DNA from: an uncultured Sphingomonadaceae bacterium
GTDB lineage: Bacteria; Pseudomonadota; Alphaproteobacteria; Sphingomonadales; Sphingomonadaceae
Direction of reading: 5' to 3'
DNA: 64,000 nt
NCBI GenBank assembly: GCA_903871605.1
Contig: CAIQHF010000036.1
Coordinates: forward strand, 186,001-250,000
Every line of letters begins with the position of its first letter. Position 1 is the stretch's first letter. A model generated the notes under the pieces. The model saw only the letters and a program-made list of their open reading frames with translations, was not told the origin of the DNA and searched no databases. A program made the position numbers and the translations under genes. Positions 12,909 to 42,370 of this stretch are shown here, piece after piece.

Positions 12909-13263
12909 GCCGATCCCCTCTTGTGATCCCGCCGGCTGCAACGTCTTTACGTTTTCGATCGCCGGGCGTGGATGGTGTTCGCCATTCCGCTACCACCGCA
13001 TTGTTGCGCTGTCAGCGGTTCGACCGACGTCAACCACCTCGAAACCGCGTTTCGAGCATCAACATCGCTTCCGCGTTGTTTTTCCGGCAGAGTGCCTTTG
13101 CGAAGGCCTCGCTCTCCTCTTGCCGGCGCACCTGCGGCACTTGTCCAATGTCGGCGCGTCTATATCTATAGGGTAAGCGGCCGCAGCTGACCGATATCTG
13201 GTCGGCGGCTATATTGGGTATTGTATCGCAACCAGTCCGTAAATCGCAATCGATCTCGTGGCA
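12909..13263. other. Gene-free 355-base region between TonB receptor and LuxR regulator
   Basis: No credible gene. Open frames here are shadows with poor composition. The region must hold the receptor promoter on the minus strand. A relatively AT-rich segment near 13160-13225 contains TATAGATATAGA on the minus strand (a possible -10) and a shorter dyad GACCGATATCTGGTC at 13189-13203. The clearest element is the 19-bp dyad listed separately. Confidence 0.5.
13038..13056. promoter_or_regulatory. 19-bp perfect dyad, candidate operator
   Basis: CTCGAAAC-CGC-GTTTCGAG is a perfect 8-bp inverted repeat around a 3-base centre, 130 bases upstream of the TonB receptor start. Its size fits the 18-20-bp dyads bound by dimeric LuxR-type proteins, and a LuxR gene lies next door. 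An mRNA leader hairpin is the alternative. Confidence 0.45.
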
Positions 13264-14388
13264 CTATGCGAGCATCAGCACACTGCGGTGGATGAAGCGA
13301 ACGAGGTCCGGCTGCCCGCGTGCGCCCATCTTCGCGTAGATGGTCTTCGAATAGGTGCGCGCGGTTTCGACGGTCAGGCCGAGATCGTTCGCGGCCTGCG
13401 CGATGCTCATGCCTCGGCTCAGCGCAAGCGCCAGCCGCGCCTCGCTCGGCAGCAGGCGAAACAGGTCGGCAAGCTGCTCGCAGCGATCCGCGGACGACCA
13501 GCCGTCGCCATGGACGTAGGCGACGATCGCCGCGACCGGATTGCCGGGTACGGCCTGCCGGTGCGCCGGAACGAGCAGCATATCGAGCCACGGGTCACGG
13601 CACAGCACGACCGCGCGCGGCCGGCCGAGCGGCGCCGCGCCGATCGCCCGGATCGCCGTGGCGATTTCGCGATCCAGCTCGTCGCTGCGTGCCGCCAGCC
13701 GGCCTCCGGCCCCACGCCGCAGAATATCGCCTCGGTCGAGGATCCGCCGCCCTTCCGCGTCCGTATCGAGCAGCCGCCCGTCGGCATCGAGCGTCATCCA
13801 GCCGAACCGCATCCGCGTGATCGCATCGCCCGTCACCGACGCCTTGAAACGCTCGCGTTCCAGGGCCACGAAGCCGCGGAGCGCGCTTCGCAAATAGGGC
13901 GCAAGCGCCTCGATCAGCGTCTTGTCCCGCGCGCGAAAGCGTCCCGTCCGACGCGACGCGGTGAGCCAGACATTGACACCGCTAGGCTCGACGATCCGCA
14001 TCAGGCGAATATCGTTCATTGCGCTCGGCGTCAGCAATTCCCGCCGATATCGTTCGTGCATGGGGTCGCCCGCGACCAGCAACTCGTCGAGCGCATAGAC
14101 GCGGCCGTCGATGAGGCCATGATAGTCGATCGGGTCAGCTCGGTGCAGGCTGTCCCGATAGAGTTTCTGGACGAGCGGGGGCGATGCCTCACCCGAAAAA
14201 AGATGGATTTGGGCGGGGCGCGAAGGCGCCAGCGGGCGAAAGATCAGGCTGGTATAGTCGGCTCCGATCCTCGCCCTGCAGCGATCGAGAAAATTGCCCC
14301 AGGGCGGATCCTCGAACGCGCCGTCGATCAACGGCGGCAGCAGACCGGCAATATCCGCCATCGCGATCATGGCATCGCATATTCCCAT
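13264..14388 (-). CDS. LuxR-family transcriptional regulator
   Basis: A 374-residue regulator with a C-terminal LuxR/NarL helix-turn-helix (about residues 310-374): LLPSEARLALALSRGMSIAQ, then AANDLGLTVETARTYSKTIY and AKMGARGQPDLVRFI. The N-terminal 250 residues form a sensory region of PAS-like character (FGWMTLDADGRLLDTDAEGR) with no phosphoreceiver Asp pocket. It therefore probably binds a ligand rather than being phosphorylated. The start is uncertain: ATG at 14388 lies within the 12-bp palindrome TCCCATATGGGA, and in-frame ATGs follow at 14370 and 14361. It is divergent from the F420-enzyme operon at 14519 and upstream, same strand, of the TonB receptor, so it is well placed to control both. 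Confidence 0.88.
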   Translation of the reverse strand: MGICDAMIAMADIAGLLPPLIDGAFEDPPWGNFLDRCRARIGADYTSLIFRPLAPSRPAQIHLFSGEASPPLVQKLYRDSLHRADPIDYHGLIDGRVYALDELLVAGDPMHERYRRELLTPSAMNDIRLMRIVEPSGVNVWLTASRRTGRFRARDKTLIEALAPYLRSALRGFVALERERFKASVTGDAITRMRFGWMTLDADGRLLDTDAEGRRILDRGDILRRGAGGRLAARSDELDREIATAIRAIGAAPLGRPRAVVLCRDPWLDMLLVPAHRQAVPGNPVAAIVAYVHGDGWSSADRCEQLADLFRLLPSEARLALALSRGMSIAQAANDLGLTVETARTYSKTIYAKMGARGQPDLVRFIHRSVLMLA

Positions 14389-14518
14389 ATGGGAGGTTCC
14401 AAGCCGACATGCCTATGTCAGATCGGCTGCGCGGCGCAATCGGCAGGCGAGGCCGGGCCGGCCGTGGGAGGCGCTTCGCCACGCGCGCAGCGGCGGCGCC
14501 AAGACTGGAGAGACGCCC

Positions 14519-15655
14519 GTGAAGGTTCAGCCCGCCGCCTTTCTGCGCACCACGCTGCCGCTCGATCTGTCGGTACTGCCCACGCTCGACAGCGGGCGCT
14601 ATCATTCGATCTGGTTGCCCGACCATATGGTGAGCTTCTGGCCGGATTCGATCTGGACGCCCGAATTCACCGATCTCGCTACCGCGTCGCCGTCGCCGCA
14701 TCGCCATCTCGACGCGATGGCGGTTGCGGGCGCGGCCGCGGTGCTGACCCGTAACGTGCCGATTGCAACAAGTGTGGTCGACACGGTGCGCCGCCATCCC
14801 GCGATGCTGGCGCAGACCGCGCTGACGCTCGATCATCTCTCAGGCGGCCGCTTCATCCTCGGCCTGGGAAGCGGCGAAGCGGAGAATACAGTTCCCTATG
14901 GCTTTGACTTTGCCAGGCCCGTCGGTCGCTTCGAGGAGGCGCTCAAGGTCATCAAGCTGCTGTGGGAAAGCGACGGGCCCATCGATTTCGAAGGGCAGTT
15001 CTTCAGCCTGCATCATGCCCGGATGGACACCGAATGCCATGACGGGCGCTGCCCGCCCATCTGGGTGGGTGCAGGCGGTCCGCGGATGCTCGAGATCACC
15101 GGGCGCTATGCCGATGGCTGGTGGCCCGCGGGCGCCTGGTCGCCCGAGGATTATGCCCAGAAGCTCGGCGTGGTCCGTGCGTCGGCTGACAAGGCGGGCC
15201 GCGATCCGATGGCGATCGTCCCTGCCTTCATCCAGACGTGCCTGATCGGCGACGACGCCGAACTCGCCGAGATAGTCGAGGCACCGCTGGTCAAGGCGAT
15301 CATCCTGCAGATATCGGCGCCCGAACTGCGCAAATATGGCCATGAGCATCCGATGGGCGAAGCGTGGCGCGGCTTCGTCGATATCGATCCAGGGGTGCTG
15401 ACACGCGAGCGGATCATCGCATTTTGCCAGCAGGTGACCCCAGAGATGATCCTCGCGATCGTCCCGCACGGAGGACCGAGCCAGATCGCCGGGATCGTCA
15501 AGGATTTCTGCGACGCCGGCCTGCGCGTCCCCAAGATCATGGACTATGGCGGCATGGCGGGCCTCCAATATGGCGCGCGTTCGGCAGCGAAGGTCCGCGC
15601 GGCGGAGGACGCGCTGATGCGGCTGCTCGGCCAGCCGGTGGGCGAAGCAGCATGA
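14519..15655 (+). CDS. LLM-class F420-dependent oxidoreductase (phthiodiolone-ketoreductase-like)
   Basis: A 378-residue luciferase-like TIM-barrel enzyme. Features include RYHSIWLPDHMVSFWPDS near the N-terminus, SGGRFILGLGSGEAENTVPYG, VGRFEEALKVIKLLWES, PPIWVGAGGPRMLEITGRYA and ADKAGRDPMAIVPAF. This pattern matches my recollection of mycobacterial F420-dependent ketoreductases (Rv2951c type) and Mer/FGD-like enzymes rather than FMN monooxygenases. Expected reaction: hydride transfer between F420H2 and a ketone or alcohol. The start is GTG at 14519, preceded by GGAGAG. An in-frame extension to 14294 has no coding character. It is the first gene of the operon that also makes F420 (cofE, cofD), and it overlaps the sulfotransferase start by 4 bases. 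Confidence 0.88.
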   Translation: MKVQPAAFLRTTLPLDLSVLPTLDSGRYHSIWLPDHMVSFWPDSIWTPEFTDLATASPSPHRHLDAMAVAGAAAVLTRNVPIATSVVDTVRRHPAMLAQTALTLDHLSGGRFILGLGSGEAENTVPYGFDFARPVGRFEEALKVIKLLWESDGPIDFEGQFFSLHHARMDTECHDGRCPPIWVGAGGPRMLEITGRYADGWWPAGAWSPEDYAQKLGVVRASADKAGRDPMAIVPAFIQTCLIGDDAELAEIVEAPLVKAIILQISAPELRKYGHEHPMGEAWRGFVDIDPGVLTRERIIAFCQQVTPEMILAIVPHGGPSQIAGIVKDFCDAGLRVPKIMDYGGMAGLQYGARSAAKVRAAEDALMRLLGQPVGEAA

Positions 15656-16830
15656 GCGCGGTTCTCGACCGGCTCGCCGCCGATGCGATGCTGGCGCGAG
15701 CCGAGGCGGCGACGGGGCTTGCCGACTATGGCGACGCGACGCTGGCCGAGCGTTTCGGCCAGGCGGTCGATCACCTCAACGGTATCGACATGGACGGCGA
15801 CGGGCGGGCGGCGGCAGCGGATGTGTGCCACTGGCTGCTGACCGACCGCCTGCGCTTCCACGCCGACCGCAAGCGCTATCCGGTCGCCGAAGAGACGATC
15901 GATCGGCCGATGTTCGCGACCGGCGAGCCGCGCTCGGGGACGACGCTGATGCATGCGCTGATGTCGGTCGATCCCGACGCGCGCGCGCTGCGCTTCTGGG
16001 AGGTGATGCGGCCTTCGCCGCCGCCCGGCGTAACCGGCGCCGACGATCCGCGCCGGATGCTTGCGGACGACGATTGGCGCGAGATCAATGCCAAGATGCC
16101 CAAATGGCTGCGCAGCCACCCCTATAACGACATGCTCGGTGACGGCTTGCCCGAGGACGAACGGACCTGGGCGTTCGATTTCCGCGTGATGACGCCGACC
16201 GCCTGGTGGCGCGTGCCGATGCAGACGCTGTCGATGGGGCTGCCGACCGACCCCGTGGCGCAATACCGCATCCACAAGGCGATGCTGCAGCAATTCCAAT
16301 ATGCGCGCCCGAGGAAGCATTGGGTGCTCAAGGGCTTCCACGGCTTTCGCCTCCGGGCGTTCTTCGATGCCTATCCCGACGCCAGTCTGGTCTATTTGCA
16401 CCGTGATCCGGTGCAGGTGGCAGCGTCGCGGACGATGATGATGGCGGACATCATGGACGGCATCGTCGGCGCGATCGACCTCAAGGCGGAGGCGAGGATG
16501 CACCTGCAGATGACGCGCGCGAGTATCGCCAACACCATGGCCGACCCGCTGATCGACGATCCGCGCATCCACCACGTCCGCTATGCCGATTTCGTGGCCG
16601 ATCCGGTCGGGACGATCCGCGGCTATTATGCCTTTGCGGGACGCGAGCTGACGCCTCAGGCCGAGACCGCGATGCGTCACTATCTCGCGAGCAACCGCGG
16701 CGATCGCCACGGCAAGTTCCGCTATTCCACTAAATTGCTGACCGACATCGGCGAGAATATCGATGCACTGCATGCCGAATTCGCGCCTTTCCGCGCGCGG
16801 TTCGGGGTGGAAATCGAGCAACGGGACTAA
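15652..16830 (+). CDS. PAPS-dependent sulfotransferase family protein
   Basis: A 392-residue protein of the Sulfotransfer_3-type family. The 5'-phosphosulfate loop is FATGEPRSGTTLMHALMSVD (about residues 85-104) and the 3'-phosphate-binding segment is YPDASLVYLHRDPVQVAASR. Between them lies WVLKGFHGFRLRAFF, where the family usually has a WxLKxP-type segment. Sulfotransferases move the sulfonate of PAPS to a hydroxyl or amine, leaving PAP. The ATG at 15652 overlaps the stop of the F420-type oxidoreductase (ATGA), so the two are coupled. A second, diverged sulfotransferase lies at 37290. Members of this family in catabolic clusters are mostly uncharacterised and a non-sulfonating role cannot be excluded. 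Confidence 0.85.
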   Translation: MSAVLDRLAADAMLARAEAATGLADYGDATLAERFGQAVDHLNGIDMDGDGRAAAADVCHWLLTDRLRFHADRKRYPVAEETIDRPMFATGEPRSGTTLMHALMSVDPDARALRFWEVMRPSPPPGVTGADDPRRMLADDDWREINAKMPKWLRSHPYNDMLGDGLPEDERTWAFDFRVMTPTAWWRVPMQTLSMGLPTDPVAQYRIHKAMLQQFQYARPRKHWVLKGFHGFRLRAFFDAYPDASLVYLHRDPVQVAASRTMMMADIMDGIVGAIDLKAEARMHLQMTRASIANTMADPLIDDPRIHHVRYADFVADPVGTIRGYYAFAGRELTPQAETAMRHYLASNRGDRHGKFRYSTKLLTDIGENIDALHAEFAPFRARFGVEIEQRD

Positions 16831-16840
16831 TCCGGTGCCG

Positions 16841-17653
16841 ATGCACCCGCGTCTTTCGGTCCACAGCGTCTCCTTTCCCGGCGCGTCGCTGGCCGAACTC
16901 GCCAGCTTTTGGCAGCGGCTCGGCTTGCGCCGTCTCAGTCTGATCGCCGAACAACTGGACGGAGACGGGCTCGACGCGGTTCGTCGGCTTGTCGCCGATC
17001 GCGGCTATGCCGTCGAGGCGATCACGCATGTCTTCGCGACCGGTGCGCTGCCGAGTGCCCGCGACGGGATCGCCGCCTGTCGCGAGAGGCTTTCGCGCAC
17101 GATCGCCAGGGCCGAGACGCTGCGCGCGAACACGATCTACATGATCTCGGGCGGACGCGGCGCGCGTACGTGGCGGACCGCTGCGGAGCTTTTCGCCGAG
17201 GCGCTCGCCCCATGCGTCCGCGAGGCCGAGCAAGCCGGCATCGCGCTCGCGGTCGAGAATGCGTCGAGCCTCTATGTCGACGTGCACCTCGCGCATACGC
17301 TGCGCGATACGATCGCGCTGGCCGAGCTCGCCGGAATCGGAATCTGCCTCGACCATTTTCATTGCTGGACCGAAGCCGATTTTCCCGAACTTGTCAGCCG
17401 CGCGCTGCCACGCGTCCGGCTCGTTCAGCTCAGCGACTATGTGCTCGGCGACCGGGCTCTGCCGGCGCGCGCGGTGCCGGGCGACGGCGCGATCCCGATC
17501 GCACCGCTTGTCGAGCAATTGCTGGCGGGCGGCTATGCGCGCGGCTTCGATCTCGAGCTGCTCGGCCCCCGCATCGATGACGAAGGTCGCTATGCCGCGG
17601 TCTCGCGCGCCTGCGATAGGACGAGCGCCATGCTCGATGCGCTCGGAGCCTGA
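16841..17653 (+). CDS. Sugar-phosphate isomerase/epimerase-like TIM barrel (xylose-isomerase-like)
   Basis: A 270-residue protein with the AP-endonuclease-2/xylose-isomerase-like TIM barrel. The start MHPRLSVHSVSFPGASLAEL, ALAVENASSLYVDVHLAHTL, GICLDHFHCWTEADF, RLVQLSDYVLG and GFDLELLGPRID contain the Glu, Asp, His and terminal Glu that usually bind a divalent metal in this family. Function could be isomerase, epimerase or dehydratase. The substrate is unknown. An in-frame GTG six bases upstream is an alternative start. It follows the sulfotransferase by 10 bases and precedes the DUF1214 gene by 11, inside the F420 operon. Confidence 0.75.
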   Translation: MHPRLSVHSVSFPGASLAELASFWQRLGLRRLSLIAEQLDGDGLDAVRRLVADRGYAVEAITHVFATGALPSARDGIAACRERLSRTIARAETLRANTIYMISGGRGARTWRTAAELFAEALAPCVREAEQAGIALAVENASSLYVDVHLAHTLRDTIALAELAGIGICLDHFHCWTEADFPELVSRALPRVRLVQLSDYVLGDRALPARAVPGDGAIPIAPLVEQLLAGGYARGFDLELLGPRIDDEGRYAAVSRACDRTSAMLDALGA

Positions 17654-17664
17654 GGAGATGGTCG

Positions 17665-18885
17665 ATGGCCTTCGGTGACAGCGCCGACGACGAACCGCTC
17701 GCGGCGGCGTGGAAGAGCTTTTGCGCGCGCCTGACGGCGGCGGGTGATCGCGCATTCAAGGATTGCAATCCCGCCAACCCGATCCAGCGCGCGGATGCAT
17801 TCCGCTTCCTCACGCAAAATCTCGGCCAGGCGTTCGATCTTGCGCTGGAAACGAGGGATACGCGTTTCCCGCTGATACACGCCTTCTGCACGCCAACGCG
17901 CAAGCTCGGCGGCGACTGCGCGGATTTCACCTATCATCAGGCGTGGATTGACGGCCGATCGATGTATCGCGTCACGGGCGATCGGGGCAGCGCGCGTTTC
18001 TTCAACATCACGGTCCAGGGGCCCCGGCCCGAGGCGATGGCAAATGGCGCGCGACCGCTCCACGATCCCTTCGGCGACGTGCCCGAGGCGAATCTGTTCG
18101 GCCATCAGCTGCATATCGGCCGTGACGGCCGCTTCGAGCTCTATGTGGGTGGGCCCAGGCGCGGCCCGAACTGGCTGCCGACGAGGAATGGCTCGCGCAA
18201 GCTGTTCATTCGCCAGGGCTTCGATGCCTGGGACGAGCGCCCCGCGACGCTGCATGTCGAACGAATCGACATGGACGGACCGCGGCCGATGCCGACGCCC
18301 GCGACGATGATCGACGCGATGGAGTGGGCGGGCAGCTTCCTTACCGCGATGATGGACGACTGGCCGGACTGGTCGTTCTCGAACGGCGGTGTCGATCCGG
18401 CGCTGCCCAATCGCTTCCCGGCGGTGGCGGATACCGGCGAGGACCGCAAGCGCGGGCGCGCGGTGGCCGCGATGCACTGGCGGCTCGCGCCCCACGAAGC
18501 GCTGATCGTGACTTTCGACGCGCATGACGGGCTGTGGATGGTCACCAATGGCGGCGTGTTCATGAACAGCATGGACTATCTCTATCGACCGGTCAGTATC
18601 ACGCCGAGCCGCGCACGCATCGACGGCGATGGACGTGTCCGCCTGATCCTCGCGCACGAGGATCCGGGTTATGCCAATTGGATCGACACGCAGCGTTTCG
18701 AGCGCGGACATCTCACCTATCGCCACATGCTCGAGGGCGCGCCGGTCAGGCTCGAGACGCAACTTGTCGACCGCGCGCAGCTTGCCGCCGCGCTTCCTCG
18801 CGCGAGCGCAACGGTGACACCGGAGGAACGGCTGGGCGAATTGCGGGCACGCTTCGCTGGTATCTGCCGGCGCTATAATCTCTGA
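17665..18885 (+). CDS. DUF1214-like domain protein
   Basis: A 406-residue soluble protein without signal peptide. The N-terminal third includes ADAFRFLTQNLGQAFDLALE and CTPTRKLGGDCADFTYHQAW, then RVTGDRGSARFFNITVQGPR. The C-terminal region WMVTNGGVFMNSMDYLYRPV followed by RARIDGDGRVRLILAHEDPG resembles the DUF1214 beta domain. I know no biochemical function for the family. Proteins of this kind recur next to steroid- or terpene-type catabolic genes. It sits 11 bases after the TIM-barrel gene and 22 bases before cofE, so it belongs to the same transcript. Confidence 0.65.
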   Translation: MAFGDSADDEPLAAAWKSFCARLTAAGDRAFKDCNPANPIQRADAFRFLTQNLGQAFDLALETRDTRFPLIHAFCTPTRKLGGDCADFTYHQAWIDGRSMYRVTGDRGSARFFNITVQGPRPEAMANGARPLHDPFGDVPEANLFGHQLHIGRDGRFELYVGGPRRGPNWLPTRNGSRKLFIRQGFDAWDERPATLHVERIDMDGPRPMPTPATMIDAMEWAGSFLTAMMDDWPDWSFSNGGVDPALPNRFPAVADTGEDRKRGRAVAAMHWRLAPHEALIVTFDAHDGLWMVTNGGVFMNSMDYLYRPVSITPSRARIDGDGRVRLILAHEDPGYANWIDTQRFERGHLTYRHMLEGAPVRLETQLVDRAQLAAALPRASATVTPEERLGELRARFAGICRRYNL

Positions 18886-18907
18886 CCGCGCCACGCTACA
18901 GCGAGCC

Positions 18908-19648
18908 ATGATTGCTATCCATCCGCTTGTCGGGATCGGCGAGATCCGGCCCGGTGACGACCTTTCGGCCATCCTCACCGCCGCGCTCGCCGCTTCCGAT
19001 CTGCTGCCGGTGCGCGACGACGACGTGCTCGTCGTCACCCAGAAGATCGTCTCCAAGGCCGAGGGGCGGTCGGTCGACCTTGCTGACGTCGCACCCGACG
19101 CGGAGGCCGAGCGGATCGCAGCGATCACGCGTAAGGATCCGCGGCTCGTCGCGCTGGTGCTTGCCGAAGCGAGTGCCGTGCTGCGCGCGGTTCCCAACGT
19201 GCTGATCACGCGCAACCGTCATGGTCATGTGATGGCCAATAGCGGGATCGACCGGTCCAATATCGGACCGGGCGACACGGATCGCGCGCTCCTGCTCCCG
19301 CTTGATCCCGACAGCTCCGCCGACGCTCTGCGGGACGCGGTGGGCTGCCCCGTCGTGATCTCGGACAGTTTCGGGCGCCCCTGGCGCTATGGGGTGACGG
19401 GAGTCGCGATCGGGGCCAGCGGGCTGCCCTCTTTGGTCGATCGGCGCGGCGAACTGGACCGCGACGGGCGCCGGCTCGAGGTGACGCAGATCGGCTTGGC
19501 CGACATGATCGCGACGGCTGCCGCGCTGGCGACGGGGGAGGGGGCGGAAAGCGTTCCCGCGGTACTCATCCGCGGCGCGGCGTGGCCTCGGGGATCGTCG
19601 CCTGCCGCAGCGCTGGTGCGCCCGCTCGACGAGGATCTGTTCCAATGA
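18908..19648 (+). CDS. cofE: Coenzyme F420-0:L-glutamate ligase
   Basis: A 246-residue stand-alone CofE. Family motifs are clear: VVTQKIVSKAEGR (about 42-54), NSGIDRSNIGPGD (111-123) and VISDSFGRPWRYGVTGVAIG (150-169). CofE adds L-glutamates to F420-0 with GTP and divalent metal, making the polyglutamate tail. Mycobacterial FbiB carries an extra C-terminal FMN (nitroreductase-like) domain. This protein lacks it and has the archaeal-type length. It starts 22 bases after the DUF1214 gene and its stop overlaps the cofD start (ATGA). The presence of cofE and cofD together is strong evidence that this organism makes F420, which is known in some Proteobacteria but uncommon. Confidence 0.95.
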   Translation: MIAIHPLVGIGEIRPGDDLSAILTAALAASDLLPVRDDDVLVVTQKIVSKAEGRSVDLADVAPDAEAERIAAITRKDPRLVALVLAEASAVLRAVPNVLITRNRHGHVMANSGIDRSNIGPGDTDRALLLPLDPDSSADALRDAVGCPVVISDSFGRPWRYGVTGVAIGASGLPSLVDRRGELDRDGRRLEVTQIGLADMIATAAALATGEGAESVPAVLIRGAAWPRGSSPAAALVRPLDEDLFQ

Positions 19649-20580
19649 CGGGCAGGGTGGTGGTGCTGACGGGCGGGGTCGGCGGTGCCAAGCTGGTGCT
19701 CGGGCTTGCGCACCTGATCGCGCCCGAAGCGATCACGGCGATCGTCAACACCGGCGACGATTTTCGCCATCTCGGGCTCGCGATCTCGCCCGATATCGAC
19801 ACGTTGCTCTACACGCTCTCGGGCAAGGCGAATGGCGCGCAAGGCTGGGGCCGCGAAGGCGAGACCTGGCAGTTCATGGATGCGCTGCGCTCATTGGGCG
19901 GCGAGGACTGGTTCAATCTCGGCGACGGCGACCTTGCGCTGCATATCGAACGCAGCGCGGCGTTGGCGCGCGGCGAGACGCTGAGCGCGATCACGCGGCG
20001 GTTCGGCGAGGCATGGGGCGTGCGGACGCGGATGCTGCCGATGAGCGACGATCCCGTCGCGACGCATCTCGCCACCGACATTGGCGATCTGCCGTTCCAG
20101 CGCTATTTCGTCGAGCATCGCTGCGCACCGGCGGTGGGTGCGATCCGCTTTGACGGCGCGGACGGGGCGAGCCCCGCCCCCGGGGTGATCGAGGCGATCC
20201 GCGACCCCGCCACGCGCGCCATCCTGATCGCGCCCTCCAATCCCTATCTGAGCGTCGATCCGATCCTGGCCGTGCCGGGCATCCGCCGCGCGCTCGAAGC
20301 GGCCGAGGCTCCCATCGTCGCGGTATCGCCGATCGTCGGCGGCAAGGCGGTCAAGGGGCCGACCGCCAAGCTGATGGCCGAACTCGGCGTGGCGCCGACG
20401 CCGGCCGCGGTCGCGGCGCACTATGCCGGAATCCTCGACGGTCTGCTCGTCGACGAGCGCGACGCGACGATCGACCTCGTGATCCCCTACGACCGGGCGG
20501 ATACGCTGATGACGACGCTCGACGACCGGGTACGCGTCGCCCACGCCGCGCTCGCGCTGGCGGAGCGACTGGCGCGCTGA
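19645..20580 (+). CDS. cofD: 2-phospho-L-lactate transferase-type protein (CofD/FbiA)
   Basis: A 311-residue CofD-family protein starting MTGRVVVLTGGVGGAKLVLG. Diagnostic segments are TGGVGGAKL (9-17), IVNTGDDFRHLGLAISPDID (33-52), FNLGDGDLALH, RMLPMSDDPV, APSNPYLSVDPIL and AVSPIVGGKAVKGPT. CofD joins the Fo deazaflavin to an activated three-carbon acid (LPPG, or the enolpyruvyl or 3-phosphoglyceryl equivalents in other lineages), giving (dehydro)F420-0. The donor used here cannot be read from sequence by eye. Translation is coupled to cofE. CofC/FbiD and the Fo synthase (CofG/H or FbiC) are not in this window. Only 7 bases separate its stop from the convergent KstD-like gene. Confidence 0.95.
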   Translation: MTGRVVVLTGGVGGAKLVLGLAHLIAPEAITAIVNTGDDFRHLGLAISPDIDTLLYTLSGKANGAQGWGREGETWQFMDALRSLGGEDWFNLGDGDLALHIERSAALARGETLSAITRRFGEAWGVRTRMLPMSDDPVATHLATDIGDLPFQRYFVEHRCAPAVGAIRFDGADGASPAPGVIEAIRDPATRAILIAPSNPYLSVDPILAVPGIRRALEAAEAPIVAVSPIVGGKAVKGPTAKLMAELGVAPTPAAVAAHYAGILDGLLVDERDATIDLVIPYDRADTLMTTLDDRVRVAHAALALAERLAR

Positions 20581-20587
20581 CGATCGG

Positions 20588-22288
20588 TCAGCTGGCGGCC
20601 GTGTCGGCTCCGGCCAGATTGTCCGCGCCAGCGGCATGCTTGGCCGCGACGAAACCCCACAGGAAGGAGGGGCCGACGCTCGATCCCGCACCCGGATAGG
20701 CGCGCCCCATGACCGAGGCGGTCGAGATACCCGTCGCATAAAGCCCGGGGATCACCGAGCCATCCTCGCGCAGCACGCGCGCGTCGGGATCGGTGACGAC
20801 GCCGCCATAGGTGCCGACATCGCCGGGCAGGACCGGAAGCGCGTAGAACGGGCCCTTCTCGATCGAGCCGAGCGTATGCGACGGTCGGTTGTACGGGTCG
20901 CCGAGCCAATTGTCATACGCCCGCTCGCCGCGATGGAAATCCTCGTCGCGGCCGCTCGCGACGAAGCCGTTGAACCGCTCGATGGTGGCGCGCAACGTGG
21001 CGGGATCGGCCTCGATCGCGGCGGCGAGCGCCTCGAGGCTGTCGCCGCTCTTCATATAGCCCGCAGCGAGCCATTGCTTGGTCTTCCAGCCGCTCACCAT
21101 GCCATTGGCGAGCCCGTATCGGGCGACATATTGACTGTCGAATACCGCCCAGCTGGGCACCGACGGCACGATCTTGTCGCGCTCGAGCATGCCCTTGCAA
21201 TAGGCCATGTAGGAGCCGCCTTCGTTCATGTAGCGGACGCCGCTCCGGTCGACGAGGATGGCGTGGGGTGCCGCCGTGACGGTCTGCATCGCGGGCGTCA
21301 CCATATCGTCTTCGGTGCCGGGCGGAATCATCGTCTGGTAGCCGACCATCTCCTCCATCTGCGCGACGGCCGCGCCATGGCGCATCATCTCCTCGATCAT
21401 CTCGCCGGTATCGCCCGATGCGACCTGCGACCACGCCGCCTGCGTACCGGGCTGATATTGATCGCGCATCCGCTGGTTGTGCGAGAAACCACCGGCGTTG
21501 ACCAACACGCCCAGGCGCGCGCCGATCCGCCAGGGCTTGCCGTCCCGGACCGTGACGACGCCGGTCACAGCACCGTCCTCGACGACCAGTTGCGTGACGG
21601 GCGCGTCGGTCCGGATGTCGACCTTGGCCTTGAGCGACGCCTGCAGCATGCGGCCCTGCAGCGCCGCGCCGGCGGATACCCAATGTTGGCCGCGCAGCTT
21701 GGCGAACAATGTGCTCAGGGCGATTTTGAGCATCATCTTGCGCCCCACCCAGCTCTGCTTGAGCGTCCTGATCTTGAGCGCATCGTCGAGCATCGCGGGC
21801 ATGTTGAGGAAACCCGGCTGGAGCTTATCGCGCCAGATGCCCAGCGCATTGGTGTCGAAGACGTCGGCGACGACGGTGCGGCCCTCGACGGAGCCGCCCG
21901 GCCGATCGTCATAATAATCGGGCCAATAGGGTACGCGAGTCAGCTTTATGCCTTGCTTGATCAGGAAATCGATCATGCGCGGCGCCTGCGTGAGGTAGAC
22001 GTGGCGGCGCTCGCGCGTCGCGCCCGGCGTGTCGTCATGGTCGCCGACGACGCTGTCGAGATAGGCCGTCGCCTTCTCGTAGCTGTCGTCGACGCCGTCG
22101 CGCGCCATGAAGGGGTTATTGGGGATCCACATCACGCCGCCCGAGCGTGCGGTCGTGCCGCCGATGAAGGCGGTTTTTTCGAGGATGACCACAGATCTGC
22201 CGAGCGACCGCATCAGCAGCGCGGCGCACATCGAGCCGCCGCCGCTGCCCACCACCACGAAATCCACCGTCTCGTCGAAGCCAGCCAT
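20588..22288 (-). CDS. KstD-like FAD-dependent oxidoreductase (3-ketosteroid delta-1-dehydrogenase family)
   Basis: A 566-residue flavoprotein of the fumarate reductase/KstD family. An N-terminal dinucleotide motif DFVVVGSGGGSMCAALLMRS is followed by EKTAFIGGTTARSGGVMWIP. The C-terminus has PVLPGDVGTYGGVVTDPDAR and GRAYPGAGSSVGPSFLWGF, the FAD-closing signature seen in KstD enzymes. Such enzymes desaturate the A ring of 3-ketosteroids, and related ones act on other cyclic ketones. The ATG at 22288 (MAGFDETVD) is preferred over the frame's upstream extension. It is convergent with cofD and divergent from an MFS transporter. Substrate is not proven, since many sphingomonad paralogues act on non-steroids. 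Confidence 0.86.
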   Translation of the reverse strand: MAGFDETVDFVVVGSGGGSMCAALLMRSLGRSVVILEKTAFIGGTTARSGGVMWIPNNPFMARDGVDDSYEKATAYLDSVVGDHDDTPGATRERRHVYLTQAPRMIDFLIKQGIKLTRVPYWPDYYDDRPGGSVEGRTVVADVFDTNALGIWRDKLQPGFLNMPAMLDDALKIRTLKQSWVGRKMMLKIALSTLFAKLRGQHWVSAGAALQGRMLQASLKAKVDIRTDAPVTQLVVEDGAVTGVVTVRDGKPWRIGARLGVLVNAGGFSHNQRMRDQYQPGTQAAWSQVASGDTGEMIEEMMRHGAAVAQMEEMVGYQTMIPPGTEDDMVTPAMQTVTAAPHAILVDRSGVRYMNEGGSYMAYCKGMLERDKIVPSVPSWAVFDSQYVARYGLANGMVSGWKTKQWLAAGYMKSGDSLEALAAAIEADPATLRATIERFNGFVASGRDEDFHRGERAYDNWLGDPYNRPSHTLGSIEKGPFYALPVLPGDVGTYGGVVTDPDARVLREDGSVIPGLYATGISTASVMGRAYPGAGSSVGPSFLWGFVAAKHAAGADNLAGADTAAS

Positions 22289-22615
22289 CCGCGTCCTTCC
22301 CGTCGTTCGGCCCCAACAGGCTCTCGTCGACAAGCCTATCCGAGCATGCGCGGCGGGTGGAGGGGGCGGCCGCAGTCAGCGGTGTGGCGATAAGTGCGTG
22401 CGATATCGTGCCAGGGCCCGGCGGGTCGGGCGCGAATGCGAAGCGGCCGTGCGGGGCGTTCGGAACAGCAGGCGGAACTCGCGACCCTCAGCGTTTCGGC
22501 GTGCAGATATCGCGACGGCGGAGATGCCGTCGGTTGCTAGGCACCCCGTCCGATCTCTCGCATAGTGCGCCTCAACGAGCATGGCCGCCCGGCAGGGGCG
22601 CCGGAGAGGACGTCC
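22289..22615. other. Divergent promoter region, 327 bases
   Basis: No gene is supported. The region separates the KstD-like gene (minus) from the MFS gene (plus) and should hold both promoters. A 20-base dyad is listed separately. The MFS start is preceded by CGGAGAGGACG, a good ribosome site. Confidence 0.5.
22513..22532. promoter_or_regulatory. Dyad in the divergent region, candidate operator
   Basis: CGACGGC-N6-GCCGTCG is a perfect 7-bp inverted repeat with a 6-base centre, 84 bases upstream of the MFS start. Spacing and symmetry suit a dimeric regulator, but high GC makes chance dyads common. Confidence 0.3.
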
Positions 22616-23917
22616 ATGACCAGCGTCGCCGCTGTCGATTCCCGTGCCCGATGGTATCATGGCTGGAACATCGTGGGCGTCTGCATCCTCTCGGGGATCG
22701 CGGCCAACGCATTGCCGATCAATGCCTTTTCGCTCTTCCTGCATGATTGGTCGGCGCAACTCCACGTGACCGTCAGCACGCTGCAACTCGGCATCGCGGC
22801 CTGTGGTCTGAGCTGCGCATTGTTGTCGCCGGTCGCGGGCATGCTTGCCGATCGCTTTCCGGCGCGGACGATCCTGTCATGCGGGCTCTTCGGCATGGTG
22901 CTGTTCTGCGCAGGGATCAGCATGGTCGAGCAGACATGGCAATATCTCATACTCTACGCGGTGCTGCTGCCGCTGTCGCTGATCTGCGCGACCTCGATTC
23001 CGGCGAACGCGGTGGTCTCGCGCTGGTTCGTGCGAAGACTGGGGCTGGCGCTCGGGCTGACCGCGTTCGGGCTGGGAATGGCGGGCGTGGTGATGCCGCC
23101 GATCGTCGCGGCGGTGATGCCGACGCTCGGATGGCGCGCGATCTGGCGGATCGGAGCGGGGGTGATCGCATTCGTCATCCTGCCGCTGGTGCTGTCGGTC
23201 GTCCGCGAGCGCCCGTCAGCGCGCGATGGGTTGCACTATCTCGCGCAGGACGGCGCGACAGGCGGACAGCCCCATCATGGTACTGCGCCGGAAGACGAGG
23301 CGGGCGAAGCGCTGCGCTGGCGCGATATCCTGTCGAGACGCAATTTCTGGCTGCTCGTCATCGGCTATCTGCCGATGCTCGCGCTCTATGGTGGATGCGG
23401 CAACAACCTCACACCGATCGCGATCAGTCGCGGCCTGAGCGCGCAGCAGGCTGGGCTGCTGCTGTCCGCCTTCAGCTTTTGCCAGCTCGCGGCGACGCTG
23501 GGCGGGGGGATGGCGTCGGATCGTTTCGGCAATCGCCTGCCGCTCGCCCTGCTTGCCTTCCTGACCGCAGGCGGCGGCACGGTCATCGCCTTCGGCCAGG
23601 GATTCCCGCTGATCCTGCTCGGCGCTGGGCTCGCAGGTGTCGGAGGCGGCTTCTGGCCGCTGCTTGCTGCCGCGGTCGCTATCGAGTTCGGCGGCAAGGG
23701 CGTCGGGCGCGCCTTCGGTATGCTGACCTTCTTCCTGCCCTTCGCGGTGATGTCGCCCTACGCCGTCGCCAAGTCGCAGGAGGCGAGCGGAAGCTATGGG
23801 CCCGCGCTGATGGCGATGGTGGCGTTGGCGCTCGCGGGCGGAATCGCCTGCCTGTTTATCCGCGAGCGACGTGGCGGCGGCCCCGAGCGTCTTCGCGCGG
23901 CGGCGGCAGCGCCCTAG
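22616..23917 (+). CDS. MFS transporter (monocarboxylate/OFA-like)
   Basis: A 433-residue inner-membrane protein with about twelve hydrophobic helices. The first begins HGWNIVGVCILSGIAANALP, and the conserved loop after helix 2 is GMLADRFPARTILSCGLFG. A cytoplasmic loop of about 40 polar residues (RERPSARDGLHYLAQDGATG onward) separates the two six-helix halves. The second half repeats the loop motif as GGGMASDRFGNRLPLALLAF. It probably imports an organic acid or neutral substrate by proton symport. Divergent from the KstD-like gene, it may share its regulator. The ATG at 22616 is chosen for its ribosome site over an in-frame start 17 codons earlier. Confidence 0.9.
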   Translation: MTSVAAVDSRARWYHGWNIVGVCILSGIAANALPINAFSLFLHDWSAQLHVTVSTLQLGIAACGLSCALLSPVAGMLADRFPARTILSCGLFGMVLFCAGISMVEQTWQYLILYAVLLPLSLICATSIPANAVVSRWFVRRLGLALGLTAFGLGMAGVVMPPIVAAVMPTLGWRAIWRIGAGVIAFVILPLVLSVVRERPSARDGLHYLAQDGATGGQPHHGTAPEDEAGEALRWRDILSRRNFWLLVIGYLPMLALYGGCGNNLTPIAISRGLSAQQAGLLLSAFSFCQLAATLGGGMASDRFGNRLPLALLAFLTAGGGTVIAFGQGFPLILLGAGLAGVGGGFWPLLAAAVAIEFGGKGVGRAFGMLTFFLPFAVMSPYAVAKSQEASGSYGPALMAMVALALAGGIACLFIRERRGGGPERLRAAAAAP

Positions 23918-28353: not shown

Positions 28354-29109
28354 TCAGGCGCTCATTTCGGCGAGCAGATCGAGCACCATGCGCGCGTCGC
28401 CGGGGCGCGCGATCAGCAGATCGGGCATATAGACGTCTTCCATATTATAGACGAGCGGGCGGCCGTCGACGCGCGAGCAATGCAGGCCATAGGCGCGCGC
28501 GACCGCGACGGGGGCCATGCTGTCCCATTCATATTGCCCGCCGGTGTGGAGATAGATGTCGGCCTCGCCGCGGATGATCGCCATCGCCTTGGCCCCGGCC
28601 GAACCCATCGGCACGAGCTCGGCGCCAATCCGCTCGGCGACCGCGACCGCTTCCTTGGCGGGACGGGTGCGGCTCACGACCATACGGCGGCGCTCGGGCG
28701 GCGGCGGGATCGCGGCGGCCTCGTCGCTGCGGAGCACCAGGCCGAGGCCGGGAAGCGCCACCGCGCCGATCTCGGCCACGCCGTCGACCGAAAGCCCGAC
28801 ATGGACAGCCCAGTCGGTGCGCCCCTCGCCATATTCGCGCGTGCCGTCGACCGGATCGACTATCCAGACGCGGCCCATGCCGAGCCGCGTGCCGTCGCAC
28901 TTCATCTCCTCGGAGAGAAGCCCGTCGTCGGGGCGCTGCGCGCGGATCGCCTGGACGAGGAACTGGTTGGCGGTCTGGTCGCCCGCCTTGCCCAGCGCCT
29001 TCTCCGCGAAGACGCCGCTGTCGCGCACGGTGAGCAGGATGCGGCCCGCTATGTCGGCAAGATGCGCGGCCAGCGCCGCGTCGGTCATCCCGGTGCTGCT
29101 AGCGTTCAT
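28354..29109 (-). CDS. cysQ: 3'(2'),5'-bisphosphate nucleotidase
   Basis: A 251-residue inositol-monophosphatase-family enzyme. The metal-binding motif [20 protein letters not shown] and the C-terminal [17 protein letters not shown] are characteristic of CysQ, which hydrolyses PAP to AMP and phosphate. PAP is the inhibitory by-product of both PAPS reduction and sulfotransferases. The start overlaps the cysNC stop (ATGA on the minus strand), and a second ATG eight codons in is an alternative. It completes a cysD-cysNC-cysQ operon, supplying PAPS and clearing PAP for the two sulfotransferases encoded nearby. Confidence 0.92.
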
Positions 29110-31013
29110 GGGATCAGCTTGGCGACGATCGCATCGGCGGCCTGATCGGGCGTCATGCCCGTGGTGTCGATATGGATCTCGGGCCGTTCGGGTGCCTCAT
29201 AGGGGCTGTCGATTCCGGTGAAGTTCTTGAGCTGGCCCGCGCGCGCCTTGGCGTAGAGGCCCTTGACGTCGCGCTTCTCGGCCTCCGCGAGCGGCGTGTC
29301 GATATGGACCTCGATGAACTCGCCGGGCGCCAGCATCTGGCGCACCATCTCGCGCTCGGCGCGGAACGGCGAGATGAACGCGGTGATCACGATCAGCCCG
29401 GCATCGGTCATCAACTTCGCGACCTCGCCGACCCGGCGGATATTCTCCACGCGATCGGCATCGGTGAAACCGAGATCCTTGTTGAGCCCGTGGCGGACAT
29501 TGTCGCCGTCGAGCAGGAAGGTGTGGCGGTTCATCCGCACCAGCCGCTGCTCGACGAGATTGGCGATGGTCGACTTGCCCGCGCCCGACAGTCCGGTGAA
29601 CCACAGCACCGCCGGCTTCTGGTTCTTGAGGTCGGCGTGCTTCTCGCGCGACACGTCGGTCGCCTGCCAGTGGATATTCTGCCCACGGCGCAGCGCGAAG
29701 TGGATCATGCCCGCGGCGACTGTCGCGTTGCTGATCTTGTCGATCAGGATGAACCCGCCGAGTGACCGATTGTCGGCATAGGGCTCGAACACGATCGGCT
29801 TGTCGGTCGAGAAATTGGCGACGCCGATCGCGTTCAATTCGAGCGTCTTGGCGGCGAGCTGCTCCATCGTGTTGACGTTGGTCTGGTATTTGGGCGCCTG
29901 CACCGTCGCACTGACCGTCTGCGTGCCGAGTTTGAGCCAATAGGGCCGGCCCGGCAGCATCTCCTCGTCGGCCATCCAGACGAACGTCGCCTCGAACTGG
30001 TCCGCGACCTGCGGGGGCTCGGCGGCGATCGCGATCACGTCGCCGCGCGAGCAGTCGATCTCGTCGGCGAAGGTGAGGGTGGGGGACTGACCGGCGACGG
30101 CCTCGTCAAGATCGCCGGCCATCGTGACGATACGGGCCAGCGTCGACGTCTTGCCCGAGGGCAGCACGCGCACCGCGTCGCCCGGCTTGATCGTCCCGCT
30201 CGCGATCAGTCCCGAAAAGCCGCGGAAATCGAGATTGGGACGGTTGACCCATTGCACCGGCATGCGGAACGGCTTGGCCTGCGCCGAGGTGACGTCGAGC
30301 TCGACCGTCTCGAGATGCGCCATCAGCGTCGGGCCCGAATACCAGGGCGTATTCTCGCTCTTGGACGTGATGTTGTCACCCTTGAAGCCGGATATCGGCA
30401 TCGGCGTGAAGTCGGCAATCCCGATCGACGTCGCAAAGCTCCGATAGTCCGCGACGATCTCCTCGTAGCGCGCCTGATCATAGCCGATCAGGTCCATCTT
30501 GTTGACCGCGAGCACGAGGTTGCGGATGCCGATCAGGTGCGCGAGATAGGAATGGCGCCGCGTCTGCGTCAGCACGCCCTTGCGCGCATCGATCAGGATA
30601 ACGGCCAGATCGGCGGTCGATGCGCCGGTTACCATGTTGCGCGTATATTGTTCGTGGCCTGGTGTGTCGGCGACGATGAACTTGCGCTTTTCGGTGGCGA
30701 AGAAGCGGTAGGCGACGTCGATCGTGATGCCCTGCTCGCGCTCCGCGGCGAGCCCGTCGACGAGCAGCGCGAAATCGATCTCCTGGCCTTGCGTGCCGAC
30801 TCGCTTCGAATCCGCTTCGAGCGTCGCCAGTTGGTCCTCGAAGATCATCTTCGAATCGTAGAGCAGCCGCCCGATCAGCGTCGACTTGCCGTCGTCGACC
30901 GAGCCGCAGGTGATGAAGCGCAGCAGCGACTTGTTCTGGTGCTGGACGAGATAGGCGTCGATGTCCTCGGCGATGAGCGCGTCGGTCCGGTAGATGGGAT
31001 CGGTGGTGGTCAT
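29106..31013 (-). CDS. cysNC: Bifunctional sulfate adenylyltransferase GTPase subunit / APS kinase
   Basis: A 635-residue fusion. The N-terminal EF-Tu-like GTPase has GSVDDGKST (37-45), [11 protein letters not shown] and NKMDL and serves as the CysN subunit that couples GTP hydrolysis to APS formation with CysD. The C-terminal APS kinase begins near residue 455 with P-loop GLSGAGKST (474-482), [17 protein letters not shown] and [16 protein letters not shown], phosphorylating APS to PAPS. The ATG at 31013 ([13 protein letters not shown]) is chosen, and the frame's upstream extension lies in the hairpin-rich intergenic segment. It is 148 bases downstream of cysD, an unusually large gap for these partner subunits. 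Confidence 0.96.
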
Positions 31014-31099
31014 TGGGCGTCCTCCCAATCGAAGACGGGCAGGGGGAGCGCTCGCGGAGCGGCGGAGAGGAGATGCGGAACGGCGGACACTGCCCTTCC

Positions 31100-31145
31100 A
31101 CCATGCTGCGCATGGTCCTCCGCCACGCGCTTCGCGCAGGGAGGA
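31100..31145 (-). repeat. Tandem hairpins between cysD and cysNC
   Basis: The 148-base gap between cysD and cysNC holds a perfect stem ACCATGC / GCATGGT with loop TGC (31100-31116), directly followed by TCCTCC (31116-31121) pairing with GGAGGA (31140-31145) around an inner GCGC-TTC-GCGC stem. The paired-hairpin layout resembles REP/BIME-like intergenic elements or an attenuator between cistrons. No second copy was noticed in this window. Confidence 0.45.
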
Positions 31146-31161
31146 TGAACGGTCGTCGCCA

Positions 31162-32085
31162 TCAGAAATACCCTTCCTGCTTCTTCTTTTCCATCGACGC
31201 GTCGCCGCCATCCTTGTCGATCGCGCGGCCCTGGCGTTCGGACGTGGTGGTGAGCAGCATCTCCTGGATGACCTGCGGCAGCGTCGTCGCCTCGCTCTCG
31301 ACCGCGCCGGTCAGCGGATAGCAGCCGAGCGTGCGGAAGCGGATCGAGCGGTCGACGGGGATCTCGCCGGGGTTGAGCCGGAAGCGTTCGTCATCGACCA
31401 TCAGCAGCATCCCGTCGCGCTCGACCGTGGGGCGCTTGGCCGAGAAATAGAGCGGCACGATCTCGATCTTCTCGAGATGGATATATTGCCAGATGTCGAG
31501 TTCGGTCCAGTTCGAGATCGGAAACACGCGGATGCTCTCGCCCTTGGCCTTGCGGGCGTTGTAGAGGTTCCACAGTTCGGGGCGCTGCGCCTTGGGATCC
31601 CAGCGGTGCGAGGCCGAGCGGAAGGAGAAGATGCGCTCCTTGGCGCGGCTCTTTTCCTCGTCGCGCCGCGCGCCGCCGAACGCCGCATCGAAGCCATATT
31701 TGTCGAGCGCCTGCTTGAGCCCCTCGGTCTTCCACATGTCGGTGTGCAAGGGGCCGTGATCGAACGGGTTGATCCCGCGCTCGGCGGCCTCCGGATTCTG
31801 ATAGACCAGCAATTCCATCCCAGCGTCGCGCGCCGCCTTGTCGCGCAACGCGTACATCGCCTTGAACTTCCAGGTGGTGTCGACATGGAGCAGCGGGAAG
31901 GGCGGCGGCGAAGGATAGAAGGCCTTGCGCGCCAGATGCAGCATCACCGCGCTGTCCTTGCCGACCGAATAGAGCATCACCGGCCGCTCCGCCTCCGCGA
32001 CCACTTCGCGCAGGATATGGATGCTCTCGGCCTCGAGCCGCTCGAGATGCGTCAAAATCTTGGTCACCACGGTTCCGTTCGTCAT
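31162..32085 (-). CDS. cysD: Sulfate adenylyltransferase subunit 2
   Basis: A 307-residue PAPS-reductase-fold adenylyltransferase. The PP-loop motif [56 protein letters not shown] and [15 protein letters not shown] identify CysD, which makes APS from ATP and sulfate with CysN. The C-terminal [20 protein letters not shown] and YF is the canonical CysD ending. No cysH, cysI or cysG follow in the operon, so PAPS for sulfation is as likely a product as reduced sulfur. It begins 91 bases downstream of the MBL-fold hydrolase stop. Confidence 0.96.
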
Positions 32086-32142
32086 GTGTCGGTTGCGATG
32101 TCGGGGCTATGCCGCGCCACCGCCAACCATAAGTGTTGTTGC

Positions 32143-32174
32143 ACCCCCAAGCCCGGCTACTGCCGGTCGGGGGT
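32143..32174 (-). terminator. Imperfect hairpin after the MBL-fold hydrolase
   Basis: On the minus strand, two bases after the hydrolase stop, ACCCCC and GGGGGT pair around an inner CCGGC/GCCGG stem with a 4-base loop and small internal bulges. It is a plausible terminator separating the MBL/dehydrogenase transcript from cysD, though no clear U-run follows. Confidence 0.45.
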
Positions 32175-32176
32175 TG

Positions 32177-33430: not shown

Positions 33431-34440
33431 GCCGGTTCCTCCATGTCGATCATCACCTTGGCCGAACTCGGCCGCGCCGCGACGTCGAGCCCGTCGAGCA
33501 CGCGGCCGAACGGCAGCCGGTGGCTGATCAGCGAGCGTATCGTGTCGTCGAGTCTCGGCATCGCCGCGATCACGTCGGGCATTTCGGTCGGGTAGCCGAC
33601 CGCGGTGGTGATCGTCATCTCGCTGGTCAGCATCCGCCCGACCGGGAATTCGATCGGCCGCATATAGGCGGCGGTGATGACGAGCTTGGCGTGGAACTTG
33701 GCCATCATGATCACGTCGGTCAGGATGGTGGGCGCACCCGCCGCGTCGATATAGGCATCGGTGCCGACACCGACGCGGCCATAGGACGGAACCTCGCCGT
33801 GCAGTCGCGCCAACTCCGCCTTCACATCCACCTTGGTGGGATCGAGCGCGGCGCGCGCACCGAGCGCCTGCGCGCGCGCGCGCCGTTCCTCGGCGAGGTC
33901 GAGTGCCACCACGTCCGTGATGCCGCGATCGACCAGCCAGAGGATCATGCCGAGCCCGATCGGCCCGCAGCCGAACACCACCACCTTGTCGCCGGCCTTG
34001 ACGTCCGCGCGGTTGACGCCGTGCATCGAGACCGCCAGCGGCTCGCACATTGCGGCGACTTCGTAGGAAATGCCGGCGGGAATCGGTAGGATGCTCTCGC
34101 CGAGCCGCGCCTCGCGCACCAGCAGTTCCTCGGTAAAGGCGCCTTCTGGACCGCCCGAGCCGATGTTGCTCGGCGTCATCATCGGATTGACGATCACGCG
34201 GTCGCCCGCTGCGATGCCCGCGACCTCCGCGCCGACCTCGATCACGTCGCCAGCGCCCTCGTGGCCGAGCGGAGTGACATTGCGCGGATTGGGGATGCCG
34301 CCGATCCTGATATAGCTGAGGTCCGATCCGCAGATGCCGACCGCCTTCATCCTGACGACGACATCCTTCGGGCCTGCTTCGGGTCGCGTATAGTCGTCGA
34401 GCCGGACGTCGCCGACGCCGTGGATGTTAAGAAGCCTCAT
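33427..34440 (-). CDS. Zinc-type MDR dehydrogenase lacking the structural zinc lobe
   Basis: A 337-residue dehydrogenase of the sorbitol/threonine-dehydrogenase group. Catalytic-zinc ligands are Cys in GICGSDLSYIR, His-Glu in PLGHEGAGDVIEVG and Glu in AAMCEPLAVSMHG. The Rossmann motif is VVFGCGPIGLGMILWL. The structural zinc loop is missing (VIVNPMMTPSNIGSGGPEGA has no Cys), as in the MDR enzyme at 6806. It should oxidise a secondary alcohol with NAD(P)+. It is coupled to the MBL hydrolase by a 4-base overlap and lies 19 bases downstream of an SDR. Confidence 0.87.
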   Translation of the reverse strand: MRLLNIHGVGDVRLDDYTRPEAGPKDVVVRMKAVGICGSDLSYIRIGGIPNPRNVTPLGHEGAGDVIEVGAEVAGIAAGDRVIVNPMMTPSNIGSGGPEGAFTEELLVREARLGESILPIPAGISYEVAAMCEPLAVSMHGVNRADVKAGDKVVVFGCGPIGLGMILWLVDRGITDVVALDLAEERRARAQALGARAALDPTKVDVKAELARLHGEVPSYGRVGVGTDAYIDAAGAPTILTDVIMMAKFHAKLVITAAYMRPIEFPVGRMLTSEMTITTAVGYPTEMPDVIAAMPRLDDTIRSLISHRLPFGRVLDGLDVAARPSSAKVMIDMEEPA

Positions 34441-34459
34441 CGTCGCTCTCCGTATCGCT

Positions 34460-35248: not shown

Positions 35249-35388
35249 CCGCATCTCCTATTGTCGTCCGTCTTCGGGACGGCTCGGTTTCGCATGGTGT
35301 CCGCCAGTCGCGCCCCCGTCCGCAATCCTCCCTGCATATCGCTAGCCGGCCGCACTGCCGATAACGGGACGCAAACCGGGGGCTGCGT

Positions 35389-38444: not shown

Positions 38445-38448
38445 GGCG

Positions 38449-42367: not shown

Positions 42368-42370
42368 GGT

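Follow-up and report, generated by a model that had tools for sequence, protein, structure and literature searches.

The window analysed here, that is, the whole stretch of DNA under study, comprises 64,000 nucleotides (G000:C36:186001-250000) from contig CAIQHF010000036.1 of an uncultured Sphingomonadaceae genome (GCA_903871605.1, here G000; 4.28 Mb in 54 contigs), and contains a run of six forward-strand genes around the cofactor F420. The run opens with LLM1 (14519-15655, GTG start), a luciferase-like oxidoreductase that is probably F420-dependent (PF00296, Bac_luciferase), followed by ST1 (15652-16830), a sulfotransferase that probably depends on 3'-phosphoadenosine 5'-phosphosulfate (PAPS; PF13469, Sulfotransfer_3), TIM (16841-17653), a xylose-isomerase-like TIM barrel protein (PF01261, AP_endonuc_2), and a DUF1214 protein (17665-18885; PF06742, 30 bits against a cut-off of 25). 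The last two genes are cofE (18908-19648; F420_ligase), for an F420-0:L-glutamate ligase (TIGR01916, 231 bits against a cut-off of 181), and cofD (19645-20580; CofD), for a transferase of the 2-phospho-L-lactate type (TIGR01819, 303 bits against a cut-off of 257). All six open reading frames (ORFs) are intact, with junctions of -4, 10, 11, 22 and -4 bases from LLM1 through cofD, which bears out the initial annotation's description of six forward genes with 4-base overlaps or 10-22-base gaps. The N-terminus of LLM1, which bears on the GTG start, is common to all five orthologues in the family. A consensus scan of positions 13000-23000 returned three terminator-like sites, compared to 4.1 expected by shuffling, and none between 14.5 and 20.6 kb; overall, promoter and terminator scans at the locus did no better than chance. 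The layout makes it very likely that the six genes share one transcript.

The first four genes, LLM1-ST1-TIM-DUF1214, are a conserved and widespread unit. When named genomes were scanned with two LLM1 peptides, 186 relatives turned up, and the best 80 of them were examined as loci; 59 of these 80 belong to Mycobacterium or relatives and 21 are non-mycobacterial, including Sphingobium sufflavum, Zhongshania, Haliea, Pseudomaricurvus, Solimonas, Hydrocarboniphaga, a metagenome-assembled genome (MAG) of Acidocella and a deltaproteobacterial MAG. Among the best 80, ST1, TIM and DUF1214 stand behind LLM1 in order and on one strand in 71 of the 72 loci that have 3.6 kb or more of downstream sequence; the hosts range from marine Gammaproteobacteria and Sphingomonas to Mycobacterium, and the one exception, L119, has no TIM match. 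Eight loci end at contig ends, with five showing all three partners, one showing two and two showing none. Gaps within the unit fall between -50 and 60 bases at 77/78, 74/77 and 74/74 of the measurable junctions. As this order recurs in 71 of 72 loci besides the window, the grouping of the first four genes is not a matter of chance, and the six-gene observation itself is confirmed. LLM1 (E 1e-60 or better) was found in five of the 298 genomes drawn from the family, representing four genera, with the other four copies 65-88% identical to that of the window. The four-gene order is present in all five, and ST1 orthologues of at least 60% identity occur in the same five genomes, with more distant ST1 relatives in ten others. 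When ORFs from 28 of the 80 loci, the window and seven family stretches were clustered, LLM1 and ST1/TIM each spanned 31 of the 36 stretches and DUF1214 spanned 28; the next sense-strand families with named homologues spanned seven, and the other large clusters were mostly antisense readings. In many mycobacterial units, another LLM gene of only distant similarity (25-30% identity) follows some 1-2.6 kb after DUF1214, as at L115:15325-16068.

The F420 pathway of G000 is complete by gene content. The cofactor is built from FO, the product of FbiC, and a linker activated by CofC; CofD and CofE finish F420, and Fno reduces it with NADPH. Each of cofE and cofD has a single match in the genome, in the operon, while fbiC, npdG and cofC lie on another contig, all over cut-off. 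The models exceeded are NF006687, TIGR03551 and TIGR03550 (CofG and CofH) for FbiC and TIGR03552 for CofC, in addition to those given above for CofD and CofE. The initial annotation's proposal that the organism makes F420 therefore stands as to gene content, with the correction that cofE and cofD are insufficient by themselves and that fbiC, cofC and npdG are encoded elsewhere. As cofE and cofD appear to be sole copies, expression of the six-gene operon would be needed for F420, provided that they are truly the only ones.

Outside the mycobacteria, the unit and F420 genes occur together. A cofD match was found in 43 of the 298 family genomes (41 over cut-off) and in none of the six other genomes of G000's genus; the model was exceeded in 3 of 14 control genomes. 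All five family genomes with LLM1 carry cofD, against the background of 43/298 (hypergeometric P 5e-5), and cofD is over cut-off in 3/3 LLM1 genomes compared to 64 of 194 genomes (P 0.035) in an order draw centred on Zhongshania aquimaris, which was picked for having LLM1; these P values ignore relatedness, and the genome sets overlap (G168, G215, G302, G305). Behind the 21 non-mycobacterial loci among the best 80 of 186, cofD is over cut-off in 21/21 genomes, and the cofD counts cover non-mycobacterial genomes; according to a 2021 review, all members of Mycobacterium make F420 (PMC8498797). F420 genes lie directly beside the unit in four genomes, and the genes differ. The window has cofE-cofD; in G027, fbiC ends 44 bases upstream of LLM1 and npdG begins 2.9 kb past DUF1214; L181 has cofE, cofD and fbiC upstream of the unit; and L172 has npdG and cofE upstream and fbiC downstream. 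At a greater distance, npdG, fbiC, cofE and cofD of Sphingobium sufflavum (L105) begin 7-11 kb from the LLM1 start, and a complete F420 cluster with cofD lies about 13 kb from the unit both in G168 (the genome of L104) and in G215 (that of L103). In G027 (L048; G027:C1:3749200-3769100), cofE-cofD-cofC adjoin homologues of the G000 genes at the right end of the window and just beyond it, so that the position of F420 genes varies within a similar catabolic island.

Several lines of evidence bear on the cofactor of LLM1. In a Foldseek search with an AlphaFold2 model of the protein (45 diverse alignment rows; predicted local distance difference test score, pLDDT, 89; predicted template modelling score 0.88), F420 enzymes took ranks 1-28 and FMN (flavin mononucleotide) enzymes appeared from rank 29, with two further F420 chains among them at ranks 31 and 37. 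An earlier model built from 16 close orthologues reached a pLDDT of 49 and was discarded. Profile searches of the PDB with LLM1 were headed by methylenetetrahydromethanopterin reductases and F420-dependent glucose-6-phosphate and alcohol dehydrogenases. Residues D35, H36, W41, G117-E120 and N123 are invariant among 16 orthologues, and residues of this type serve F420 binding and catalysis in FGD. Taken together, the fold and PDB matches, the invariant residues and the co-occurrence with cofD make it highly probable that LLM1 uses F420.

The sulfotransferase of the unit has a counterpart elsewhere in the window, ST2 (37290-38444, forward strand; PF13469). ST1 retains the loop PRSGTT, presumably the phosphosulfate-binding loop, both proteins keep PR(S/T)GTT, and P93, R94, G96, T97 and T98 are invariant across nine ST1/ST2 sequences. 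Both thus combine a sulfotransferase domain over cut-off with the loop of PAPS-dependent enzymes, and PAPS is with good confidence the sulfo donor of ST1. The best PDB matches of ST1 are 2z6v and 2zq5 (109 bits, distant) and that of ST2 is 2z6v (351 bits, close); we take these structures to be STF9 and STF1. Genes for PAPS supply and PAP (3'-phosphoadenosine 5'-phosphate) removal, cysD, cysNC with an APS (adenosine 5'-phosphosulfate) kinase domain and a cysQ-like gene (94 bits against a cut-off of 229, thus below it), occupy 28354-32085 on the reverse strand, next to a reverse-strand gene for a metallo-beta-lactamase fold protein with an alkyl-sulfatase dimerisation domain (32177-33430; PF00753 and PF14863). 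The whole block (28354-38916) comprises cysD-cysNC-cysQ-like, the alkyl-sulfatase-like gene, an alcohol dehydrogenase, a short-chain dehydrogenase/reductase (SDR), an AraC-type regulator, ST2 and a glyoxalase-like gene. It is kept in G000, G021, G168, G172 and G288, and in G215 as far as the contig end, and it adjoins F420 genes and LLM2, a further LLM enzyme described below, in G172 and G288. In a Halioglobus MAG (L150), genes of the block (alkyl-sulfatase-like, alcohol dehydrogenase, SDR) adjoin the LLM1 unit, which suggests that block and unit share a pathway. ST2 orthologues of at least 60% identity occur in six of the 298 family genomes, five of which carry cofD. The sixth, G021, has none; the block is therefore not strictly F420-dependent, and the idea of ST2 as a strict F420 partner was dropped. 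A further neighbourhood of PAPS and F420 genes is seen at L068 (G237:C5:57200-77100), where homologues of cysD-cysNC-cysQ and the genes cofD-cofC are a few kb apart and a LuxR-like gene occupies part of the interval.

Immediately upstream of LLM1 and divergent from it is a LuxR-like regulator gene (13264-14388, reverse strand) with weak, below-cut-off matches to NCBIfam LuxR-type models. Homologues stand divergently beside the unit in G027, where the gene faces fbiC-LLM1, and in G288, L105, L114, L119 and L126. An inverted-repeat search from the regulator to LLM1 returned two overlapping palindromes, both inside the regulator gene. Convergent with cofD is a gene for a flavin adenine dinucleotide protein resembling 3-ketosteroid-delta-1-dehydrogenase (KstD-like; 20588-22288, reverse strand; NF009478, 659 bits against a cut-off of 789, below it), homologues of which adjoin the unit or lie close to it in G027 (78%), L114, L119, L126 and L172, and a major facilitator superfamily (MFS) transporter gene follows at 22616-23917. 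The KstD-like gene, together with neighbouring genes for a Rieske oxygenase, a flavin-monooxygenase-like protein and an acyl-CoA dehydrogenase, suggests that a polycyclic or terpenoid-like ketone is degraded, and the gene neighbourhood makes a catabolic role in this species reasonably likely. Further along the window, 42137-44382 carries genes recognised from sequence as E1-alpha, E1-beta and lipoyl-domain components of a dehydrogenase of the 2-oxoacid or acyloin type; their homologues lie downstream of cofE-cofD in L057. LLM2 (44496-45407, reverse strand) is an F420-type LLM enzyme (TIGR03619, 219 bits against a cut-off of 167) that forms a pair with an SDR gene (the two together at 44496-46324); copies of at least 55% identity stand near cofD in six of the 45 family cofD neighbourhoods, and also in L172 and L181. 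The same island includes a gene for a protein of the F420H2-dependent reductase family (61569-62057, reverse strand; PF04075 and TIGR00026 over cut-off), the only PF04075 match in the genome.

A FastTree phylogeny of LLM1, ST1 and DUF1214, built from 34 hand-picked sequence sets out of 83, splits the mycobacterial from the other units with a support of 1.0. The window and G027 form a pair (1.0) near the mycobacterial split, next to the Acidocella MAG group with weak support (0.53); L103-L105 group elsewhere (0.97), and G288 groups with the deltaproteobacterial MAG (0.99). The ST1 of the window is 84% identical to that of Solimonas terrae, 73-79% to mycobacterial sequences and 64-66% to L103-L105. 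Since sphingomonad units occupy three places in the tree and the ST1 of the window is closer to Solimonas and mycobacteria than to L103-L105, the unit has likely spread by horizontal transfer. A plasmid origin was considered and set aside, as no plasmid record reaches 60% identity to LLM1 (313 matched) or ST1 (25 matched).

We consider it probable that the unit is a horizontally moving metabolic module that uses F420 and PAPS and is accompanied by F420 biosynthesis outside the actinobacteria. LLM1 would most likely act on a small organic substrate, exchanging hydride between F420 and a carbonyl, an alcohol or an activated double bond in it; ST1 would use PAPS to sulfonate a hydroxyl group on that intermediate or on one adjacent to it in the route; and TIM and the DUF1214 protein would carry out further steps. 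Mycobacteria make F420 in any case; in the Proteobacteria, where the cofactor is patchy, the module occurs together with F420 biosynthesis and, in several genomes, directly adjoins F420 genes. CofD would join FO to the moiety activated by CofC and CofE would add glutamate, with FbiC, CofC and NADPH-F420 reductase encoded elsewhere. Because the genes for the last two F420 steps sit directly behind the LLM1 unit and no other copies of them were found, inducing the operon would yield the enzyme along with its cofactor. A bolder version, which we regard as doubtful, is a new type of degradative route, travelling between Mycobacterium and Proteobacteria, in which F420 hydride chemistry is coupled to sulfonation as an activating step. 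LLM1 would then shift the oxidation state of an oxygenated carbon, ST1 would sulfate a hydroxyl and so make it a leaving group, and skeletons beyond ordinary beta-oxidation would be opened by elimination or hydrolysis. Genes of the same island would provide both PAPS synthesis and PAP removal, and the route would have been joined to F420 biosynthesis genes in hosts otherwise without them.

Besides the limits on the cofD counts given above, several observations weigh against the F420- and PAPS-using module. The six-gene order, for which the initial annotation proposed a search in other sphingomonads, was found only in G000: none of the 45 other family cofD neighbourhoods, some of them contig-limited, has the LLM1 unit within about 10 kb. 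The conserved part is the first four genes, and cofE-cofD behind DUF1214 is private to G000; as the neighbouring F420 genes differ from locus to locus, a position beside some F420 genes is a recurring tendency of the unit and this exact placement is not. Within the fetched stretches (up to 10 kb per side), F420 genes were found at 5 of the 21 non-mycobacterial and 0 of the 59 mycobacterial named loci. LLM1 reaches 129.7 bits with the best curated F420-LLM model, TIGR03619, compared to a cut-off of 166.9, and is under the NCBIfam cut-off in all 25 listed of its 30 matching families. Its structural model is of low confidence near residues 38-40 and 58-61, close to the expected active site. All NCBIfam matches of TIM are below cut-off, and family matches assign no reaction to TIM or the DUF1214 protein. 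Finally, the flanks of the unit at the mycobacterial locus L115 do not look catabolic.

The scores of LLM1 bear on the possibility that it uses FMN, with the F420 genes adjacent by chance or serving another enzyme such as LLM2. That LLM1 falls short of all the cut-offs of the LLM families listed, that its fold serves both cofactors, and that LLM2 is an F420-LLM over cut-off are all compatible with this alternative, which is nonetheless very unlikely given the presence of cofD in 21/21, 5/5 and 3/3 LLM1 genomes (overlapping sets), the different F420 genes adjoining the unit in four genomes, and the first place of F420 enzymes in both the fold and sequence rankings. The initial annotation's view of LLM1 as an F420-type enzyme is supported as probable by its fold and by cofD in all LLM1 genomes examined outside the mycobacteria, and falls short at the curated cut-off. 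The flanks of L115, in turn, concern a biosynthetic role, in which the module would make a sulfated lipid, quinone or secondary metabolite and owe its catabolic look to its neighbours. Mycobacteria make sulfated lipids and sulfated menaquinone, the unit is present at 59 mycobacterial loci among the best 80 of 186, and the L115 flanks resemble housekeeping genes (names recognised from sequence); as these flanks do not support degradation, biosynthesis stays a serious rival. We nevertheless judge it unlikely, as the window and several proteobacterial loci are flanked by dehydrogenases, P450, Rieske oxygenase and KstD-like genes. A sulfotransferase is also the classical conjugating enzyme, and LLM1 and ST1 could reduce and sulfonate a toxic compound for export with no carbon gain, a reading compatible with the nearby MFS transporter gene. 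Such detoxification is distinctly improbable, since the alkyl-sulfatase-like gene in the PAPS/ST2 block would undo the conjugation and the surroundings of the unit include numerous catabolic genes as well as a receptor of TonB type (recognised from sequence).

If the module works as proposed, the locus offers a specific F420 user enzyme, a conserved set of partners, and the last F420 steps placed for co-expression with the user, and thereby an explanation, concrete and open to test, for F420 biosynthesis in some Proteobacteria. It would also link F420 to PAPS chemistry, and it singles out for study a four-gene unit present in many environmental bacteria. The 2021 review reports F420 in some Alpha- and Betaproteobacteria, states that outside the actinobacteria no bacterial F420-dependent reductase or dehydrogenase had been the subject of experiments, lists as an open question why Proteobacteria make the cofactor, and does not contain the word 'sulfotransferase' in its main text (PMC8498797). 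The initial annotation had called the pairing of F420 with PAPS undescribed to its knowledge, in agreement with which no paper on an F420/sulfotransferase operon was found, subscription journals being mostly outside the search. The enzyme families are individually known, and what appears to be undescribed in the literature searched is the cross-phylum unit with its tie to F420 genes.

Among the closest known systems are the aflatoxin-degrading F420H2-dependent reductases of actinobacteria, where F420 likewise serves the breakdown of difficult organics (PMC3034190, PMC3288000). The abstract text consulted mentions no sulfotransferase, and the present case differs in that the host is a proteobacterium and the user enzyme is followed by cofactor genes. 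All five genes of bacterial F420 biosynthesis (FbiC, CofC, CofD, CofE) and NADPH-F420 reduction are over curated cut-offs in G000; however, they are split over two contigs, with cofE-cofD within the enzyme operon, whereas other family genomes usually have fbiC, fno, cofE, cofD and cofC together in various combinations. The mycobacterial sulfotransferases 2z6v and 2zq5, labelled 'putative uncharacterized protein' by their depositors, are the best PDB matches of ST1 and ST2, and no F420 operon is linked here to either structure. LLM1 shares its fold with the F420-dependent LLM enzymes Mer, FGD, Adf and hydroxymycolic acid dehydrogenase, which are its nearest solved structures, but the identity is only about 20-25%, and LLM1 differs from them in a distinctive N-terminal third that is invariant among its orthologues.

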